DNA of 35,568 nucleotides from a virus. Where the stretch lies: the IMG/VR virus record IMGVR_UViG_3300026089_000018, positions 1 through 35,568 of that record; one strand, given 5' to 3'. Under the pieces are notes generated by a model. The model was not told where the DNA came from, did no database searches, and saw only the letters and a program-made list of their open reading frames with translations. The position numbers and the translations under genes are program-made. Below, piece after piece: positions 1 to 35,252 of this stretch; position 1 is the stretch's first letter, and every line of letters starts with the position of its first letter.

Positions 1-903
1 GTAGTTGCCGAACTCCTCGTCCTTGTCGATCGTGACCCGCCAATCAACGTTCACGGCCTGCACCGACGCCAGCTTGTTCGCCTGGCTCCCCGGAATGTCA
101 GCCGGGTTGTAGCCGCCCGCATAGATCTCGATGTCGCGGCCCTTCACGGCAGCGGGCTTCACCGTCGCCGACGGGTGCACCGTCTGCAGGTAGCTCACCG
201 TGTCCGGGGACGAGTACATAATCCGGATCTTGTCGGTAGCCGGAACCGCAGCGAGGATCGTGAGGGTCGAGATGCCAGCACCAGCGGTGACGGTGCCGAC
301 AGCCTCGGTGTAGTCGATGCCCTTCGTCAGACGGTTCCTGCCAGCGGTCACCGACAGCACACGGCGGCCGTCCGCCTCAGCCGACTGGTACGCCGGGTGG
401 GCCGTCACAATGGTCTGGTTCGGGGTGTTCGACCCGACAACCTCCTGCAGGAACACAGGACCGGGGTTGTAGAAGATGGAGTCGCCGCGCAGAGTGGCCG
501 ACTGGGTTGCGTTGTCGCGGAGGCCGAACCGGTACGACATCTGCTCCAGGTACAGGAACGGGATCGCGACCGAGTTGACCACGTTGAACGGCGACGCCGC
601 GTTGACACCGGCCTTGAACTGCGACGCGATGTCGATGGGAACGGACGTTGCCAGGTCGAGGCCGCCGCCCGGCACCGACGTGACACCACACAGCATCTGC
701 TCGATCTCGGTGGACGTGTCGAACGACTCCAAGCTGAACGACAGGTCCGGGGTGTCACGAACAGTCGCGACCGACTTGTAGTTTCCGAGTTCGTAAATCT
801 TCTCGGTGGGGATGTTGACCTGACCGGGACCTCCGGTCTGCACACGATCGACAACGACATTGCCGTTGCCAGCGTGGATGATCTGCCCGCCCTTGATCGC
901 CAC
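1..903 (-). CDS. Major tail tube protein (C-terminus beyond window)
   Basis: An uninterrupted reading frame of 301 codons runs from a GTG at 903 off the left edge. It begins VAIKGGQIIHAGNG and continues with a region around YELGNYKSVATVRDTPDLSF and then DTSTEIEQML. It looks like the beta-rich subunit that stacks to form the tail tube of a long-tailed phage. AAGGGAG about 8 nt upstream of the GTG supports this start. It lies directly downstream of the connector and tail-terminator genes, which is where the tube gene normally sits in siphophages. The assignment rests on position and overall character rather than a diagnostic motif. A sheath or other tail subunit is less likely. The tape measure gene would be expected left of the window. 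Confidence 0.7.
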   Translation of the reverse strand, partial: MAIKGGQIIHAGNGNVVVDRVQTGGPGQVNIPTEKIYELGNYKSVATVRDTPDLSFSLESFDTSTEIEQMLCGVTSVPGGGLDLATSVPIDIASQFKAGVNAASPFNVVNSVAIPFLYLEQMSYRFGLRDNATQSATLRGDSIFYNPGPVFLQEVVGSNTPNQTIVTAHPAYQSAEADGRRVLSVTAGRNRLTKGIDYTEAVGTVTAGAGISTLTILAAVPATDKIRIMYSSPDTVSYLQTVHPSATVKPAAVKGRDIEIYAGGYNPADIPGSQANKLASVQAVNVDWRVTIDKDEEFGNY

Positions 904-1004
904 AGGAGGCTCCCTTCGTCAGCGGTGAACGGCCCCATTGGCGTCAGGGGCTCTCGAAGGGAGACTTCGACTAGGGGCCCCCGAATCGAAGGCGTGAACG
1001 GGTG
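904..1004. other. Intergenic nested hairpin
   Basis: This 101-nt gap before the tail tube gene contains a stem TCGAAG/CTTCGA (954-959 with 965-970, 5-nt loop) flanked by GGGGC and GCCCC. An alternative pairing joins CTCCCTTCG (910-918) with CGAAGGGAG (955-963), which covers the tube gene's ribosome-binding site. It may be a processing site, a weak terminator or a translational control element for the highly expressed tube gene. No T-run follows. Confidence 0.4.
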
Positions 1005-1727
1005 TTACCGCTCGTACATCCACGCCTTCCGGCTGGCCTCACGGACCAGGTGGGCGATGTCGTCGAGAGACTTCTGACCCGGCCTGTACGACCTGTACGC
1101 GTTGGCGTAGTCCTCGTGGGCGAGGATCGGTTCGCGGATGACTGCGGTACCGACGAAGTTCTGCTTGTTCCCGCCGTCTTCGAGCATGTCGTCACGTGAG
1201 ATGTAGTCTCCGCCCCGTCGGAGCCGGATACGGCCACCAGTCGGGATGAACATGTCGGACCGTCGTGACGCCTTGTGCGGGTAGTACGGCTTCCCGGCGT
1301 ACACACGGTCAGCCGTGACACGGCCGATGGTGCCACCCCACAGGCCCTTCAGTTCACGGCCGACGTGCCCCGTGTACCCCTCCTCGATCTGACGCCAGTA
1401 CTTCGCGATCGAGTTGTCCAGGAAACTGATCCGGCCCACGTGGTAGCCGAACTCGTCGGAACCACGGTTCCTCGGGTCCGCTGTCACATGCCGCAGACGA
1501 CGTGAGGACACGTTGCGTCGCAGGATGGAGTGCTCCATGTTGTCCAGCACCTCAGCCTGCAGTTCCCTAGCCCGCTGCGCGTTCTTCACCTTCAGGTCGG
1601 CGATCAACTGGGTCGAGTCGCCCAGAGAGTAGAACGTGCCAGGTTTCCCTAACGTCGACCCGGCCGGGTATCGGCCACGGCCACCCTCGCCACGTTTCGG
1701 GTAGATGTACCACTCGAAGGACGCCAT
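1005..1727 (-). CDS. Hypothetical neck/tail-region protein
   Basis: A 240-residue protein beginning MASFEWYIYPKRGEGG, rich in Arg, Lys and aromatic residues. A helical segment (about 40-75) is followed by a beta-rich part with many Gly/Arg. Its ATG overlaps the stop of the preceding gene (1727), so it is translationally coupled to the connector operon. I do not recognise a family. Its place between the tail-terminator pair and the tail tube suggests a tail completion or minor virion protein, by context only. Confidence 0.6.
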   Translation of the reverse strand: MASFEWYIYPKRGEGGRGRYPAGSTLGKPGTFYSLGDSTQLIADLKVKNAQRARELQAEVLDNMEHSILRRNVSSRRLRHVTADPRNRGSDEFGYHVGRISFLDNSIAKYWRQIEEGYTGHVGRELKGLWGGTIGRVTADRVYAGKPYYPHKASRRSDMFIPTGGRIRLRRGGDYISRDDMLEDGGNKQNFVGTAVIREPILAHEDYANAYRSYRPGQKSLDDIAHLVREASRKAWMYER

Positions 1728-16810: not shown

Positions 16811-17512
16811 GTGACCGACGAGGAACTGTCTCAACTGTGGGCCTGGTACAGCGACGACCACGCCCCCGAGGCGCTGGAGATGCTGGTCGCCCACTACGAG
16901 CCGCTCGCCCGGTACCTCACCCGCCGTGCCCTCGCCAAGGCCCCGCCGCATCAGGACAAGGAAGACCTCCTGTCCTACGCCCACCACGGGCTGCTCGATG
17001 CGATCAGGAAGTTCGACCCCGAACGAGGGTTCAAGTTCGAGACCTACGCGTCACGGCGGATCACCGGGTCCATCATCGACGGGCTCCGGTCGCAGGACCC
17101 GCTGTCGAGGCCCGTCCGTAAACGGGTGTCCGCGCTCCGCGACGCGCAACTGAGGCACTGGGAGCAGGTAGGCAGGTCCCCGACGGTGGAGGAGCTGGCC
17201 GCCGACATCGGCGAGTCCGTCGACGCCGTGAGGGAACTCCTCGTCCACCAGCAGACCCTCACCAAGGAACTCGACCAGACCGTAGCCGAGTCCCATTACA
17301 CCGACGGAGACGCTGAGGCAGTCCTCGAAGAAGAAGGGCTCGTGCACGGGCTGGCGAACCTGCTGCCCCGCCTGTCAGAGCGTGACCGGGTATTCGTGGT
17401 CCTCTACTACGTGGACAAGATGTCGCTGCGGGACACCGGGAAAGTGCTCGGCATCTCAGACTCCCGCTGCGCCCAGATACGGCGTGAAGCGTTGCAGTCG
17501 TTGCTGTCCTAG
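16811..17512 (+). CDS. FliA/WhiG-type RNA polymerase sigma factor
   Basis: A 233-residue protein from GTG 16811. Region 2 (about 25-100) contains DKEDLLSYAHHGLLDAIRKF, then FKFETYASRRITGSIIDGLR and PLSRPVRKR, the core-binding and -10 recognition segments in the form typical of sigma-28/WhiG. Region 3 (104-150) has GRSPTVEELAADIGESVDAV. Region 4 (184-233) has LPRLSERDRVFVVLYY and the -35-binding helix LRDTGKVLGISDSRCAQIRR. It should redirect host RNA polymerase to phage promoters. It is the only gene of its block on the plus strand, and its stop shares CTAG with the convergent tail gene. No anti-sigma gene is evident beside it. Confidence 0.9.
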   Translation: MTDEELSQLWAWYSDDHAPEALEMLVAHYEPLARYLTRRALAKAPPHQDKEDLLSYAHHGLLDAIRKFDPERGFKFETYASRRITGSIIDGLRSQDPLSRPVRKRVSALRDAQLRHWEQVGRSPTVEELAADIGESVDAVRELLVHQQTLTKELDQTVAESHYTDGDAEAVLEEEGLVHGLANLLPRLSERDRVFVVLYYVDKMSLRDTGKVLGISDSRCAQIRREALQSLLS

Positions 17513-17879: not shown

Positions 17880-20800
17880 CTAGACCCCAGCGCGGCTAAT
17901 GGGAACCCAGCCGACCCCAGGCACCTTCACCAGCACCGGACGGTTGTTCACTGTGTTGATTCCGATGATGACCCGTTGACCGTTCGCGGTCAGCACCGAC
18001 AACTGCACAAACGCTGCGGCAGGGAACAGCATCCTGACGGGGGCAGTGCTGAGGACACTTGTCACGGTCAGCGTGGCCGCTGCAATCCTCGTGGGAAGCC
18101 CAGCGGGGTCCAGGGTGGAGGTGGCGGTCATCGCCACGGTGGCGAGGACGACCCGTTCCCCGACCGGGGTGAGTGTTGCTGTGGTGGTGAGGGTGACGGT
18201 GGAGGGCTGGATCGCCCCGCCGCCCGCCTGCAGGGTGGAAGCAGTGGTCAGGGCTGCTGCGACGACTGCCGTCCTGGTCGCGGTAGCAGTCAGTGTCGAC
18301 GTGGTGGTGAGGTCAACGGTTCCGACGCCGACACCGAACCGGATCGCGGTCGCAGACAGTGTGGACGTAGTGATGAGCCCTGCGGCGACCGGTCGGATCC
18401 GTTCACCCGTGGCGGTGAGGGTGGAAGACGCATTAAGAGCTGCAGCGGACTGGGGGGCGCGAACGGCCGTTGCCGTCAGGGTCGCCGACGCACTGAGTGC
18501 ACCGGTAGACAACTGGGTGCGGACTGCGGTGGCGGTCAGGGTGGACTGGGTGGCGAGAGTGGCGGCGACGAGGCCGATCCCGATGACGGTCCCGGTAGCG
18601 GTGAGTGTGGATGTGGCTGTGAGGGCCGCAGTGGCCTGCGGAACCCGGACCCCGGTGGCAGTGAGCGTGGACGCCGCTGTGAGGGTGGCGGACGCGACGG
18701 CGTCACGGGTGGCGGTAGCAGTCAGGGTGGACGCTGTAGTGAGGTTGGCGGCTGACAGTGGGATACGGACAGCAGTCGCGGTCAGAGTGGAGACTGCAGC
18801 CAGATCGGCGGCGGCCTCCTTCACCCGTACAGCGGTTGCTGTGAGTGTGGACGTGGCCGCGAGGGTGGCTTCTACGACACCGACCCCGGTACGGATTGCG
18901 GTAGCAGTGAGCGTGGAGACGCTGGGCAACGCAGCAGTGGCGAAGGTGGTGACAACCCCAGCGGCCGTCAGGGTTGACGTGGTGGTCAGGTCGCGGCTGA
19001 CGATCCGGAGCCGCTCTGCGGTAGCGGTCAAAGTGGAGACGGTAGTCAGGTCGACGGTAGGCGTGACAACTCGGAGCGCAGTGGCAACGAGTGTTGACGT
19101 CGAGACCAGCGACACAGCGGACTGCGGCTCCCGCACGGCGGTAGCAGTCAGCGTGGACGCGCCGGTCAGGGCAGTGGTAGCGGGCTGGGTGCGTACCCCG
19201 GCGACCGTCAACGTGGAGGCAGTGACGAGGTTGGCTGCGACGAGACCGACGCCGATGGAGATACCGGTGGCGGTCAGTGTCGACGCTGTGGTGAGCGCGG
19301 CAGTGGCCTGGTTGGTCTGGATTCCAGCCGCAACCAGAGTGGACGTGGCAGTCAGAGCTGCAGTGGCCTGCGGCTCCCGAACCCCGGTCGCGGTCAGTGT
19401 CGATGTGGTGGCGAGGGCGGCCGTCGTGGTGTGGGTCTGCTGTGGCGTAGCGGTGAGTGAAGATGAGGCCGTCAGGGAGACGGCAGCGATGGGCTCCCTG
19501 ACGGCTGCTGAGGTGAGGCTGCTCGTGGCAACCAGGTTCGCGGCGGAGGCACCGACCCCGCTGACGGCCGCAGCCAGTGTCGATGACGCGACTAAAGCGG
19601 CCAGCACAGTGGCGTCGCGAACGCCCGTTGCCGTCAAGACCGCTGTAGAGCTCAAGGCCGCTGTGGTGGTCTGTTCGCGTACGGCGATGGCGGTGAACAT
19701 GGAGACGCCGGTGAGGTCGGCTGCCGCCTGCGGGACCCTGATCCCCGTCGTGGTGAGCGTGGATGCGACGGTCAGGGCTGCCGACGTGACGGCGTCACGT
19801 TCCGCCGTGGCGGTGAGGGTGGACTGGCCGACGAGGGTGGCTGCCCCGGGGAGGACCGCGAACGCGACACCGGTTGCTGTGAGTGTTGAAGTGGCGGTAA
19901 GAGCTGCGGCTACAGTCGCGACGCGAACGGCCGTTGCCGTCAATGTGGTTGCGGCTGTCAGGGTCCCAGCAGCCTGCGGTTCCCTGACTCCGGTGGTGGT
20001 CAGTGTCGACGTCGCCGTGAGTGCTGCGGACGCGGGTACGACGCCGATGGTGGTGCCGGTGGCTGTGAGGGTGGAGACGGCTGCCATCGCGGCGGTGGAG
20101 ACTGCGTCACGGACGGTGGTGGCTGTGAGTGTGGATGTGGTGAGGAGCGCGGCTGCGCCGAGGGGCACATGGAACGCTGTCGCGGTGGCCGTCAGAGTAG
20201 TTGTGCTCGTGAGGGCGGTTGTGGCGAACTCGGTGATGACCCCGGTCGCAGTCAGGGTGGATGCGGCGGCGAGGTTGGCTGCTGCTACCTGGTCACGTAT
20301 CGGGGTGGTGGCGAGGGTACCGGTGGCGGTGAGAGCGGCTGTGGCGAACTCAGTGGCGACAGCGGTAGCCGTCAGTGTGGATGCCGCCGTGAGGGCTGCT
20401 GTGGCGTTCTGGGTGCGTACCGCTGTGGCGGTGAGGGTGGACGCCGTGAGGAGGGACACGGCGGCTGCTGGTGCCCTGACGGCTGTAGCGGTGAGCGTCG
20501 ACGCAGCGGTGAGGGCTGCTGCCGCGCCCTGGACGCGTACCGCTGTGGCGGTCAGGGTGGATGTAGCTGTGAGTCCCGCTGCGGACTGCGGTTCCCGAAC
20601 GGCTGTTGCCGTCAACGTCGATGCGGCCGTCAGGGCGGCTGTCGCGTCGTGAGTGAGCGGCCCGGAAGTGACGTCGCCGGTAGCCGTCAGTGTTGATGTG
20701 GCCGTAAGGGCTGCTGTGGCGTCATGGGTGGTAGGCCCTGTGCCGATGTCACCGGTAGCCGTCAGCGTCGAAGTTGCTGTCAGGTTGGCCCCGGCGTATG

Positions 20801-23800
20801 CGGTGATGGTGGCACCCGCAGGCGAAATTGCCCTCGCCCTGCTCGCATGTGCAGTACCAAGCCACTGGTACTCCCACGTCGCCGTATCAGTGGTGTCACC
20901 GTCGAAGTAAGTCTCAGCCCGGTTACCGATCTGCTCAACAATCACACTGTCGATTCCGACGGCCTGCGACGTGGCATTGTTCGTGGCGAACGTGAATTGA
21001 AGTCTGTCGGAATCAGTCCCACCAGGGAGGCCCAAATATGCGGCTCCCGGAGGGGGAACGTACTGGACCAGCGACGTCCACGAGTTAGCAAAGAAACTGC
21101 CGATTGTGTCGAACGTAGTCACCGTGTGACGTTCCATCGGCCCGGTATCAGTTGTACCGTCCGCCGCGTAAGTAGTCGGCACAACCGGGTCAACCTTCAC
21201 GGTCGGTGTTGCTGGACCGACCACTCTGTTGCGGAAGTGGTACGCCCGACCCTGCTTGACCGGAATAGCTCCGTACGTTGTGTCACGGACGAACGAACCA
21301 GTCGCTCCGGTCGCCTCGTAAGCGTAAGTCCCTACAGGGACAGCGCCATTCGTCAACGTCGATGTACGCGTGCCACCAGTCCAACCGGTTGAGCCTGTCT
21401 CGAACGACGGGTTCTCGATCAAATTGGTGCGAACGTACGGCGACGTGTGTGTAGCACCAACCTTGATCTGCATGACGCCACGCGAAGCGGCACCGCTAGA
21501 CGTTTGAGCGAGGGTTGTGGCAGGAGACGTCTGATTCCCAGAAACCACCATCGCCTGTGTGGCCCACGTAGTCAGGTTGTTACCGGTAGTCGTATTGGTG
21601 CCGTTGAAATAGACAACTTCCGACATCGCGCAACCAGGAACAATAAGATCGTGGCTCGAAACCGACGCCGTGTTGTTGCTCTCGCCGCCAACCGAAATAA
21701 TCATCTCGCCAGGGGCGGCATCGAGACTCTCATCGACGGTTGCGGAGAAACTCGACCCAGCAGCCGACGCTCCGAAAGCAACCTCAGGGTACTGCCATAT
21801 AGCGTTCGAGTCGTTCTTGCGGTATACGCCAGCGAACGTTGCCGTAACACCACCCGTGACCACCGGGATGCTTGGTGCGGCGCTCTCCCCGACGTTCTGC
21901 TGCCTGCACCATGCCGTCAATCTGACTGGGCCAGTACCTTCGCCGTCGGCGTCGGAACCTATAGCCATAGACCCGATCAGCACCCACCCGACGTCAGGAG
22001 GAAACGGAATCGAACTAGCCGGACGAGTCGTCATCCATAGCACTGTCAAGTCGCCAGCCTGAACGTCACCGGCTGCCGTCAAAGTGGTGCCAGTCGCAGA
22101 CGACGGTGTCGCCGGTGGCGACGGAGAAGAAACGTGGTACACGAACGGGCTAGGGACGGCGTTGAAATCCGCCGCAAGGACAGCGAGTACGGTTCCACCG
22201 TTCTCAGTCCGGCTGTGGTCCCACACCTGATGGCCGTCAACCGTGGGAACCTTCCACTGCATCCCCGCAGTGATCGACGTACTCGATGTGCCCGTGTTGG
22301 CGTTCGCGGTGTAAACAGACGACCATGCACCGCCAGTGCCGTTGCTGTACGTCGACGGGACCACATTCGACTCGAAGTCGGTACACCCAATGACCAGGTC
22401 GCCAGCCAGCGTTGGTTGCCCGAACGTATCGAACCCCGAAATAGGGTTCGTGGTCGAAACGCCGCGCGGGTTGTTTCGGAGCACCACCGAACAACCGGTG
22501 AACTCCGACAACAACAACACCTTGGAAGCACGCGACGAATCTATAGTCGCGGTCACTGCCGTAGACGACGGCCAATTAACGGTGGTCTTGATCGCCCACA
22601 ACTCGCCACGGGACCAACCATTAGCCGTCGAAGAACCGGCGTCGTGGGTGATGATTCTGCGCCACGTCGCCGTCTCTCCACCGGGCTTGCTGATCGAAGA
22701 AACAAGAGGGAATTGGAAACCGCCGTTGTCGCCTGCGTAGTACGCCACCAACACGTTCCCGGCATCGACCTGCGCCGCCGTGGTCGCAGCGACAGTTGTG
22801 CCAGATACGGTCGACGTTCCTGCCGTGTGGTCTCTCACCCACCGCGCAGACGAAGGTATCAAGGTGCCCGCAGCCGTCAACGTCGACGTGGCCGTCAGAG
22901 CGGCTGTGCCCTGCCTAGTAACTGGCGCGATCGTGATGTTGACGGTCGGTGTCACAGTGGTCGCGTCAAGATTCACGCCGTTACGGCGGACCCGGAACTT
23001 CAACACATCACTGTTGACGAAGTCGGCCTGTTTCAGCGTCAACGCGTACAACAGCTCAGTATGGCCGGACGCGGTCCAACCTTCGTTGTCGACCAGACCG
23101 TCCTCAGACACAGAACCTGCGCCGAACGTGCCCGTGCCGCCAGTAAGCCGACTGGTGGTCGCCCCTCCGTCGGTCAGGTTCGCGGAGGCGTATCCGGAAA
23201 CAGTGGAGGTGCCTGTGCCTACATCGACCCACGTGCCGCTGCTGTTCTTCTCCCACTGGAGCTGGAAGTCGTCAGTGGCCGGGACTGTGCCGCCTGCTGT
23301 TTCCTGTAGCCGGACACGGAGTGCGAGGTTCTCATCAGCAGACGAAAGGTCAACGGTTGGTGCCGTGTCCTGAGCCGCCAATGCGGTAGCCCCGGTTTCC
23401 GTCCCATCCGCATAGAACCGGTACGCGGCCTGGGTGACAGCCGGTTGAATGAGTGCCCGAGCGCGAACGATCGCCCCAGGCCCATATGTCGTTGTTGTCG
23501 TGCCTGTGACACCAGCGGAGTATGTGAGAGTTCCTGCCAACTGCTGCGAGGACACGGTCGGCATCGCAGTAGACACACGCCCACCGATGTCGTTGCCGGT
23601 CGTGGATGCTGGTGCGACCCTCTGGGAGATGGTGCCCAGCGTGATCGTGCCGCCACCCTGTGCCGTGACCGTCGCCAACTGCCACGTCGGGGCTGTGCCC
23701 TGTGCCATAACGATTGCGAAGATGAGACCGTCGCCGGTCTTGACAAAGTCCGTAGCAACAGACGATGTCACAAACGTGAACGGGGTGGCCGCCGTCGTGT

Positions 23801-24191
23801 CTACGCCGCCCGTGATCGCCCAGTCAATCGTCTCCGTGGTAGCGCATTCCCAACGCTCCGTATACCCCCACGCCATGTTCGCTGAGCCAGTGAGAGTGAA
23901 CGTCACAGAACCCGAGTTGGTCGCAGTCGTCTGGTCATCACGCACAAAAACGGAAACCTCAGACGGACCAGTACCGCCACCAGGGACACCGCCACCGCCA
24001 GAGAACGTCCCCAACAATGTCCAACCGGAGGGTGTGGTGATCGCAGCCGTGTCAGGGCGCAGGCCGATGTATGTGATGTAACCGTACTTGCGGGATGCTG
24101 TCGGCGTTCCGGTCGGATACGCGACGGCTACGGATGACGGGTTCTGGGATGTGATGACCTGAGCGCCACCGGAACCCCATACGAGTGCCAT
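17880..24191 (-). CDS. Giant repetitive tail-fibre/adhesin-like protein
   Basis: A 2103-residue protein. The N-terminal half holds three related beta-rich modules starting near residues 1, 460 and 700 (for example TTPSGWTLLGTF and DVGWVLIGSM), then a carbohydrate-binding-like region near 930-1110 with NLIENPSFETGSTGW. From about 1130 to 2070 there are about 46 tandem imperfect repeats of 20, sometimes 22, residues with consensus AALTAxSTLTATAVR. Alternating small/hydrophobic and Thr/Ser residues suggest a beta-solenoid or fibre shaft. The C-terminus GVGWVPISRAGV ends it. It is probably a surface-exposed tail appendage that binds host glycans. The start ATG follows the upstream stop as TAGCCGATG. 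Confidence 0.8.
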   Translation of the reverse strand: MALVWGSGGAQVITSQNPSSVAVAYPTGTPTASRKYGYITYIGLRPDTAAITTPSGWTLLGTFSGGGGVPGGGTGPSEVSVFVRDDQTTATNSGSVTFTLTGSANMAWGYTERWECATTETIDWAITGGVDTTAATPFTFVTSSVATDFVKTGDGLIFAIVMAQGTAPTWQLATVTAQGGGTITLGTISQRVAPASTTGNDIGGRVSTAMPTVSSQQLAGTLTYSAGVTGTTTTTYGPGAIVRARALIQPAVTQAAYRFYADGTETGATALAAQDTAPTVDLSSADENLALRVRLQETAGGTVPATDDFQLQWEKNSSGTWVDVGTGTSTVSGYASANLTDGGATTSRLTGGTGTFGAGSVSEDGLVDNEGWTASGHTELLYALTLKQADFVNSDVLKFRVRRNGVNLDATTVTPTVNITIAPVTRQGTAALTATSTLTAAGTLIPSSARWVRDHTAGTSTVSGTTVAATTAAQVDAGNVLVAYYAGDNGGFQFPLVSSISKPGGETATWRRIITHDAGSSTANGWSRGELWAIKTTVNWPSSTAVTATIDSSRASKVLLLSEFTGCSVVLRNNPRGVSTTNPISGFDTFGQPTLAGDLVIGCTDFESNVVPSTYSNGTGGAWSSVYTANANTGTSSTSITAGMQWKVPTVDGHQVWDHSRTENGGTVLAVLAADFNAVPSPFVYHVSSPSPPATPSSATGTTLTAAGDVQAGDLTVLWMTTRPASSIPFPPDVGWVLIGSMAIGSDADGEGTGPVRLTAWCRQQNVGESAAPSIPVVTGGVTATFAGVYRKNDSNAIWQYPEVAFGASAAGSSFSATVDESLDAAPGEMIISVGGESNNTASVSSHDLIVPGCAMSEVVYFNGTNTTTGNNLTTWATQAMVVSGNQTSPATTLAQTSSGAASRGVMQIKVGATHTSPYVRTNLIENPSFETGSTGWTGGTRTSTLTNGAVPVGTYAYEATGATGSFVRDTTYGAIPVKQGRAYHFRNRVVGPATPTVKVDPVVPTTYAADGTTDTGPMERHTVTTFDTIGSFFANSWTSLVQYVPPPGAAYLGLPGGTDSDRLQFTFATNNATSQAVGIDSVIVEQIGNRAETYFDGDTTDTATWEYQWLGTAHASRARAISPAGATITAYAGANLTATSTLTATGDIGTGPTTHDATAALTATSTLTATGDVTSGPLTHDATAALTAASTLTATAVREPQSAAGLTATSTLTATAVRVQGAAAALTAASTLTATAVRAPAAAVSLLTASTLTATAVRTQNATAALTAASTLTATAVATEFATAALTATGTLATTPIRDQVAAANLAAASTLTATGVITEFATTALTSTTTLTATATAFHVPLGAAALLTTSTLTATTVRDAVSTAAMAAVSTLTATGTTIGVVPASAALTATSTLTTTGVREPQAAGTLTAATTLTATAVRVATVAAALTATSTLTATGVAFAVLPGAATLVGQSTLTATAERDAVTSAALTVASTLTTTGIRVPQAAADLTGVSMFTAIAVREQTTTAALSSTAVLTATGVRDATVLAALVASSTLAAAVSGVGASAANLVATSSLTSAAVREPIAAVSLTASSSLTATPQQTHTTTAALATTSTLTATGVREPQATAALTATSTLVAAGIQTNQATAALTTASTLTATGISIGVGLVAANLVTASTLTVAGVRTQPATTALTGASTLTATAVREPQSAVSLVSTSTLVATALRVVTPTVDLTTVSTLTATAERLRIVSRDLTTTSTLTAAGVVTTFATAALPSVSTLTATAIRTGVGVVEATLAATSTLTATAVRVKEAAADLAAVSTLTATAVRIPLSAANLTTASTLTATATRDAVASATLTAASTLTATGVRVPQATAALTATSTLTATGTVIGIGLVAATLATQSTLTATAVRTQLSTGALSASATLTATAVRAPQSAAALNASSTLTATGERIRPVAAGLITTSTLSATAIRFGVGVGTVDLTTTSTLTATATRTAVVAAALTTASTLQAGGGAIQPSTVTLTTTATLTPVGERVVLATVAMTATSTLDPAGLPTRIAAATLTVTSVLSTAPVRMLFPAAAFVQLSVLTANGQRVIIGINTVNNRPVLVKVPGVGWVPISRAGV
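17965..20795. repeat. About 46 tandem 60-bp coding repeats
   Basis: Imperfect repeats of 60 bp (some 66 bp) encode the AALTAxSTLTATAVR units. Adjacent units differ at many positions and recurrent variants such as REPQ recur at distant units, suggesting duplication and shuffling by recombination. The repetition leaves long open frames on the opposite strand. Confidence 0.9.
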
Positions 24192-35030: not shown

Positions 35031-35252
35031 TCAACGGGCGTTAGCAGTACCGTTCCAGCCGGAATCCCGATCCACCTTCCGGGTCCCATTCCAACCCGAA
35101 TCATGATCCGTATGCCGCACACCCACCCTGGTCCCATTCCAACCAGAGTCACGCCGAGCAGACGCCGGACCCGCAGCCACAACACCAGCCGCCACAACAC
35201 CCAAAACACTCACGCCCACCACCAGCAGACGCTTCCTCATCTTCTTCTTCAT
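35031..35252 (-). CDS. Secreted peptide with three DSGWNGT repeats
   Basis: A 73-residue protein. Residues 1-32 are a signal peptide: basic MKKKMRKR, hydrophobic core LLVVGVSVLGVVAAGVVAAG, and cleavage site PASA. The mature 41 residues contain DSGWNGT three times (RRDSGWNGTR, HDSGWNGTRK, RDSGWNGTAN), separated by basic spacers. GTAGGGGG precedes the second of two adjacent ATGs (35252), chosen as start. It should be exported by the Sec system. No Cys and no enzyme motif are present. It may act outside the cell as a signal, an inhibitor or a surface-coating peptide. Standing apart at the right end, it looks like a host-acquired gene. Confidence 0.75.
   Translation of the reverse strand: MKKKMRKRLLVVGVSVLGVVAAGVVAAGPASARRDSGWNGTRVGVRHTDHDSGWNGTRKVDRDSGWNGTANAR

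Follow-up and report, generated by a model that had tools for sequence, protein, structure and literature searches.

Peptide quorum sensing is a textbook subject for the Firmicutes. In the arbitrium system of Bacillus phages, AimP is the pro-peptide and AimR its TPR-type receptor. The RRNPP systems (Rap-Phr, PlcR-PapR, NprR, Rgg and PrgX) have two adjacent genes, one for a propeptide that is secreted and one for its presumed intracellular receptor, occur on chromosomes, plasmids and phages, and use signals of about five residues that are often C-terminal (PMC10075063). RRNPP systems are described as a feature of the Firmicutes; actinobacterial signals are typically small molecules made by enzymes (PMC10075063). 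Density signalling in Streptomyces is described as relying mainly on butyrolactones; when a study of 2024 sought signalling peptides in its strain, it reported no strong candidates (PMC11019849). S. coelicolor is reported to import an extracellular signalling oligopeptide of ~655 Da through the BldK oligopeptide permease (PMC9640686, PMC11303876); we found no sequence given for it in these two sources.

Here we describe small secreted precursors, each with one to nine D-x-x-W-[G/N/S/T] units, that are encoded divergently from a TrmB-like regulator with a LuxR-type domain, and a phage gene that resembles them. As in arbitrium, an exported pro-peptide carried by a phage adjoins a regulator gene. 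Unlike arbitrium, the family has several D-x-x-W-x copies per precursor, divergent genes and actinomycete hosts, and in place of the AimR-type TPR receptor its regulators combine a TrmB/PLD part with a LuxR-type HTH. The features of RRNPP systems listed above recur in the family, with receptors from a different superfamily: no TPR-type receptor of the AimR, Rap or PlcR kind accompanies its propeptides. In the open-access PMC literature we found no description of the D-x-x-W motif, of the precursor-regulator pair or of peptide signalling by actinophages.

The precursor gene and its phage

The window (the whole stretch of DNA analysed) is a linear viral contig of 35,568 bp. The features at its right end are collected in Table 1.

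Table 1. Features of the precursor gene and its surroundings (positions in the window).
Feature	Position	Strand	Basis or remark
Precursor peptide CDS, 73 aa	35031..35252	minus	alternative in-frame starts 35255, 35240
Sec-type leader (predicted), residues 1-32	35157..35252	minus	translation, hydrophobicity
Unit 1, DSGWNGT	35130..35150	minus	translation, pattern scan, substitution test
Unit 2, DSGWNGT	35082..35102	minus	translation, pattern scan, substitution test
Unit 3, DSGWNGT, then ANAR and stop codon	35046..35066	minus	translation, pattern scan, substitution test
Small ribbon-helix-helix-like protein, 74 aa	34774..34998	plus	convergent with precursor gene; DUF6290 E=5.7e-5
Upstream intergenic region to contig end	35253..35568	.	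316 bp, without convincing gene

Read on the minus strand from 35252 to 35031, the precursor consists of MKKKMRKRLLVVGVSVLGVVAAGVVAAGPASA followed by the 41-residue mature chain RRDSGWNGTRVGVRHTDHDSGWNGTRKVDRDSGWNGTANAR and a stop codon; choosing either alternative start leaves the conclusion unaffected. The first part has a KKKMRKR n-region, a hydrophobic core of Val, Ala and Gly and an ASA cleavage-like site. From this composition and site a Sec-type leader is predicted, with putative cleavage position and start codon, and by sequence and hydrophobicity the peptide has the secretion leader that marks the D-x-x-W precursors. The mature chain lacks Cys, as in the Streptomyces family. The initial annotation had read a leader and a 41-residue chain with three DSGWNGT units, and translation and pattern matching confirm the ORF and the units. 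Its remark that the gene stands alone on its strand holds locally and fails elsewhere in the window, where phage structural genes also lie on the minus strand.

The D-S-G-W-N-G-T pattern has exactly three matches in the window, versus none in 100 dinucleotide shuffles. The DNA of the three units differs at six sites, all of them third codon positions, and all seven unit-to-unit changes are synonymous (P ~4e-5 under random single changes); the spacers between the units are not conserved. Selection has thus held the peptide unit while its DNA and the spacers drifted, and the DSGWNGT unit is under purifying selection. With its three DSGWN copies the peptide has the two or more D-x-x-W-[G/N/S/T] units typical of the family. 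The initial annotation suggested that cuts at the basic spacers could set DSGWNGT peptides free. Most relatives have spacers rich in Ala and Pro, so that the basic spacers of the window peptide are particular to this phage. It also ends six residues past its last unit (GTANAR); in the relatives on mobile elements the last unit is the C-terminus.

That the window derives from a phage, as had been proposed, is backed by its terminase, portal and tail genes. The terminase has a weak PHROG match and tblastn relatives, and further genes include a portal-like gene, a GH25 endolysin, a sigma-70-like factor and fibre genes. No integrase was seen among the window ORFs checked, and no tRNA was found in the window. 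Downstream of the peptide gene, at 33 nt, lies the ribbon-helix-helix-like gene; the product of that neighbour also matches RHH_1 (E=0.0026), and both its DUF6290 and RHH_1 matches are below curated cut-offs. The best named phage relative is the uncultured GX15bay. Related contigs have the left half in common with the window and lack its right arm. The precursor is absent from the phage relatives that have the window's terminase, a lysin-based search returned no relatives bearing the right arm, and no overlapping viral contig that continues the right end was found. At the left end of the contig, a 5'-open ORF (1-1077, plus strand) was considered as a wrapped-around regulator and proved not to be one; on the minus strand, the same stretch reads like a structural gene that related phages also have.

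Other observations concern the phage at large. An 11-kb fragment (L015, IMGVR_UViG_3300005459_000078) has ~99-100% protein identity to window positions 1.5-12.9 kb and comes under another metagenome number, so that the same phage recurs. The sigma-70-like factor (16811-17512, plus; Sigma70_r2 E=3.5e-14) is conserved in the related contigs G002 and G008. A 2,103-aa phage protein without Pfam match (17880-24191, minus) adjoins collagen-like and Gp80-like fibre genes, and its C-terminal half is made of dozens of degenerate 'STLTATA' repeats of ~17-20 residues each. In a related phage contig, a 181-aa ORF with a LuxR-type HTH (53.6 bits; L245, G003:C1:24988-25152) lies immediately upstream of the terminase and is, by its size, of another kind than the TrmB-LuxR type.

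A family of precursors and divergent regulators

No whole-peptide homologues were found in phages and plasmids (tblastn) and no close homologue in IMG/VR (peptide patterns), and Pfam, PHROGs and NCBIfam hold no match to the window peptide. The Phr N-terminal model TIGR04429 does not match it; one Streptomyces relative scores 16.3 bits, below the cut-off of 25. Chance was judged to account for single DSGWNGT matches in IMG/VR and for GWNG...D[S/T]GWN matches, and a weak match in the related phage G004 belongs to an unrelated gene frame.

We scanned 84,980 genomes at the DNA level for three D-x-G-W-N units. Among the 51 matches, 13 are small Streptomyces precursors with 3-9 copies each of DSGWN, DIGWN, DVGWN, DLGWN or DPGWN, and a secretion leader can be recognised in nearly all of these. 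As a control, the pattern was reversed and run on 15 of the source genomes, where it matched nothing. Under phylum-wide sampling, genuine pattern matches are limited to large Streptomyces-type genomes. The initial annotation had made its reading depend on conservation of the repeat in homologues, and secreted DxGWN repeat precursors do occur in Streptomyces, phages and plasmids, where they pair with a regulator family. Across 31 precursors, several of them picked through the D-x-G-W-N pattern, units of one precursor are 98.6% identical at the variable positions versus 37% between precursors, a pattern that would follow if every precursor were matched to a single receptor. Unrelated proteins of Lachnospiraceae, Bacilli and Eubacteriales (L065, L078, L092) repeat 'SWxDxGWNN[YS]SG', followed in L078 and L092 by a Cys-containing domain of the CYITTA/CFITTA type.

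The regulator adjoining the Streptomyces precursors is encoded on the opposite strand, has ~330-370 residues and carries a GerE/LuxR domain. By tblastn it has a homologue in Streptomyces phage Chymera, and one such regulator (L082) used as query matched 96 plasmid records. Chymera gene 30, a leader with two DPGWG units, the second at the C-terminus, is divergent from regulator gene 29. Six of the seven plasmids examined have the same divergent pair, with DSDWG, DSAWG or DTTWG units; in the seventh, an ISAs1 transposase occupies the position expected for the precursor. When viral contigs were scanned with the regulators, eight loci emerged. Each of them has a precursor, and the units are DTAWG, DTTWG, DTHWG, DTSWG, DLGWG and, in L186, DSGWN/DTGWN/DTGWN. 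A motif peptide thus accompanies 15 of the 16 regulators examined on phages, plasmids and viral contigs. The Chymera gp29/gp30 pair adjoins an integrase and an immunity repressor, and integrase and repressor-like genes lie near the L186 pair. This neighbourhood suggests control of lysogeny and is a further likeness to arbitrium, by analogy with which a role in lysis-lysogeny is presumed.

The start of the precursor lies 68-421 nt from that of the regulator in these mobile-element relatives, varying with the start codon chosen. The window record has no LuxR-type domain, and its contig stops 316 nt upstream of the peptide start, within this range. A receptor is therefore expected at or just past 35568, and the window's own receptor would be out of sight because the contig ends about where a divergent regulator would start. 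No shared operator stood out in 15 intergenic regions. The region upstream of the L067 precursor contains a perfect 16-nt palindrome, TCCTGTAGCTACAGGA (shuffle fraction 0.04, uncorrected for the 15 regions), which is imperfect in L093; it is an operator candidate for the clpB-linked pairs.

Chromosomal pairs were also sought by regulator alone. A search with the L186 regulator found one to nine homologues in each of 57 Streptomyces genomes, out of 61 sampled. Thirty chromosomal loci were chosen by regulator score, with no selection for the motif. At 23 of them a small ORF that has both a leader and a [D/E]-x-x-W motif is divergent from the regulator, 17 have at least two motif copies, and seven regulators have no recognisable peptide partner. 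New unit variants at these loci include GEPSWE, GEPTWE, DIGWS, GEISWS, DSGWT and DSSWN. In a class-wide sample, strong regulator homologues in smaller non-Streptomyces genomes are mostly without a recognisable partner, so that the pair seems to belong mainly to Streptomyces. The regulator and its unit co-vary with p=0.0014 for the sensor in 43 pairs and p=0.06 in 51 pairs. With one regulator per clade, sensor (p=0.0006) and HTH (p=0.004) both correlate with the unit, and shared ancestry may therefore explain the co-variation. It is sensitive to sampling and partly phylogenetic, and hence suggestive rather than robust.

The surroundings of the chromosomal pairs vary. Precursors of L074, L099, L058 and L070 adjoin NRPS-type thioesterase or synthetase genes, a position that suggests control of antibiotic clusters. 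Several family regulators stand in tandem within a few kb at G450:C8:119564-125491, G467:C136, G729:C7 and G712:C8. A conserved ORF of ~93-104 aa adjoins many precursors (L093, L190, L195, L198, L202, L204, L206, L209 and L212) and resembles N-terminal segments of Rieske-type oxygenases (MATAYRSGWHFIDL...); at several loci it is followed by a PPOX-like gene and clpB. In L093, L098 and L105 the pair lies in the clpB-hspR interval, where SCO3664 of S. coelicolor is presumably also found. An insertion in SCO3664, described as 'regulator', altered actinorhodin production (PMC6585502).

The regulator as a presumed receptor

An AlphaFold model of the L186 regulator begins with a winged helix at the N-terminus, continues with a long helix and an alpha/beta domain, and ends in an HTH (mean pLDDT 85; pTM 0.54, which leaves the domain arrangement uncertain). 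The regulators have the N-terminal winged HTH, coiled coil and PLD-like sensor domain by which TrmB proteins are defined. In a profile search the first part is TrmB-like (TrmBL2, E=6e-10). The sensor has a phospholipase-D fold and matches the TrmB sugar-binding domain (Z 15.8, 2.5 A over 131 residues), while profile and fold searches agree on a NarL/LuxR-type HTH at the C-terminus. The likeness to TrmB and TrmBL2 thus extends over sensor sequence and fold, and the family differs from them by the added LuxR-type HTH and by its linkage to secreted peptides; the known ligands of TrmB are sugars. None of 51 regulators has an HKD catalytic motif in its PLD-like domain, two pattern matches falling outside the domain. 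It is plausible that the dead PLD domain serves as a ligand pocket, and we infer that the ligand bound there is the peptide.

The signal imported by BldK, also found in Streptomyces, is of the same size class as the D-x-x-W-x peptides. By analogy, a BldK-type permease is a plausible import route for them.

Readings of the phage gene

The window peptide resembles the family in its leader, size, lack of Cys and near-identical D-x-x-W-N units. The link consists of the five-residue unit and the architecture, the rest of the sequence being not alignable. Neither a TPR-type nor a TrmB-LuxR receptor was found in the window up to its end 316 nt upstream of the peptide start; with leader and repeats present, two of the three defining features, membership in the D-x-x-W precursor/TrmB-LuxR family is likely but incomplete. 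The gene is most likely a phage-borne precursor of signalling peptides, to be read by a TrmB-LuxR receptor of the phage or of its host. The initial annotation had left the choice between a signalling peptide, a coat peptide and a modified-peptide precursor; the regulator-paired family favours the first.

We give a probability of roughly 0.55 to the reading that the exported pro-peptide carries three DSGWN(GT) signals and, together with its own TrmB-LuxR receptor encoded past 35568, steers a decision of the phage. The precursor would be exported via Sec and cut by proteolysis into short D-x-x-W-x peptides, which an oligopeptide transporter, conceivably of the BldK type, would import. Inside the cell, the peptide would bind the catalytically dead PLD-like domain of the TrmB-LuxR regulator, and the altered DNA binding of the regulator would shift transcription, that of the precursor gene included. 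The receptor of the window phage would most likely lie on the plus strand just beyond 35568. How densely phage-carrying cells are packed would be signalled by the pair, which, by analogy with Chymera, may steer a choice such as lysis versus lysogeny.

A phage without a receptor of its own might instead make the host's signal and so feed a false message to a host TrmB-LuxR regulator. Among the chromosomal units of the set, DSGWN is indeed the most frequent (8 of 31 precursors, seven of them of the clpB-linked type); several Streptomyces have it at their clpB-linked locus, and the window shows no regulator. Yet nearly all regulators examined on mobile elements travel with their own precursor (15 of 16), and the contig stops where the partner would be expected, which makes mimicry of this kind unlikely.

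We also doubt that the gene encodes some other secreted repeat peptide (surface-active, wall-binding or a modified-peptide precursor) that came to resemble DSGWN by convergence. The basic spacers and the GT after the unit are unlike the Streptomyces family, and other phyla have W-rich repeat proteins that are unrelated to it (Lachnospiraceae, Aliidiomarina, Novosphingobium). Among 874 small leader-bearing ORFs in ~670 kb of other loci, however, part of them selected by the GWN pattern and hence no pure control, a leader and short chain with at least two identical D..W units are found in family members only, and the subset of window ORFs given to Pfam contains no modification enzyme. It is highly improbable that the peptide is a bacterial gene, the terminal 0.5 kb being either host sequence from the edge of a prophage or the product of a chimeric assembly. 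No further gene separates it from the contig end, where strand composition shifts (GC skew -0.455), and the precursors are common in Streptomyces chromosomes, but the GC content of the end is phage-like (60%, against ~70% in the Streptomyces loci fetched), the phage-like RHH gene is 33 nt away, and neither an integrase (ORFs checked) nor a tRNA was found.

Beyond this locus, we tentatively propose, short of even odds, that phages, plasmids and chromosomes of actinomycetes share D-x-x-W-x/TrmB-LuxR messaging that is independent of the RRNPP systems of the Firmicutes, and that temperate actinophages such as Chymera and the window phage use it in an arbitrium-like manner, to choose between lysis and lysogeny, or intercept host signals. 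If true, Streptomyces would have a genetically encoded set of peptide messages, from which import systems such as BldK might draw their peptides, and communication between phages would extend beyond Bacillus. The family is present in most sampled Streptomyces, often several times per genome; phages and plasmids carry it too, and some of its members lie beside NRPS genes or in the clpB region. Its gene content and arrangement point to a previously unrecognised peptide messaging system in Streptomyces and their viruses.
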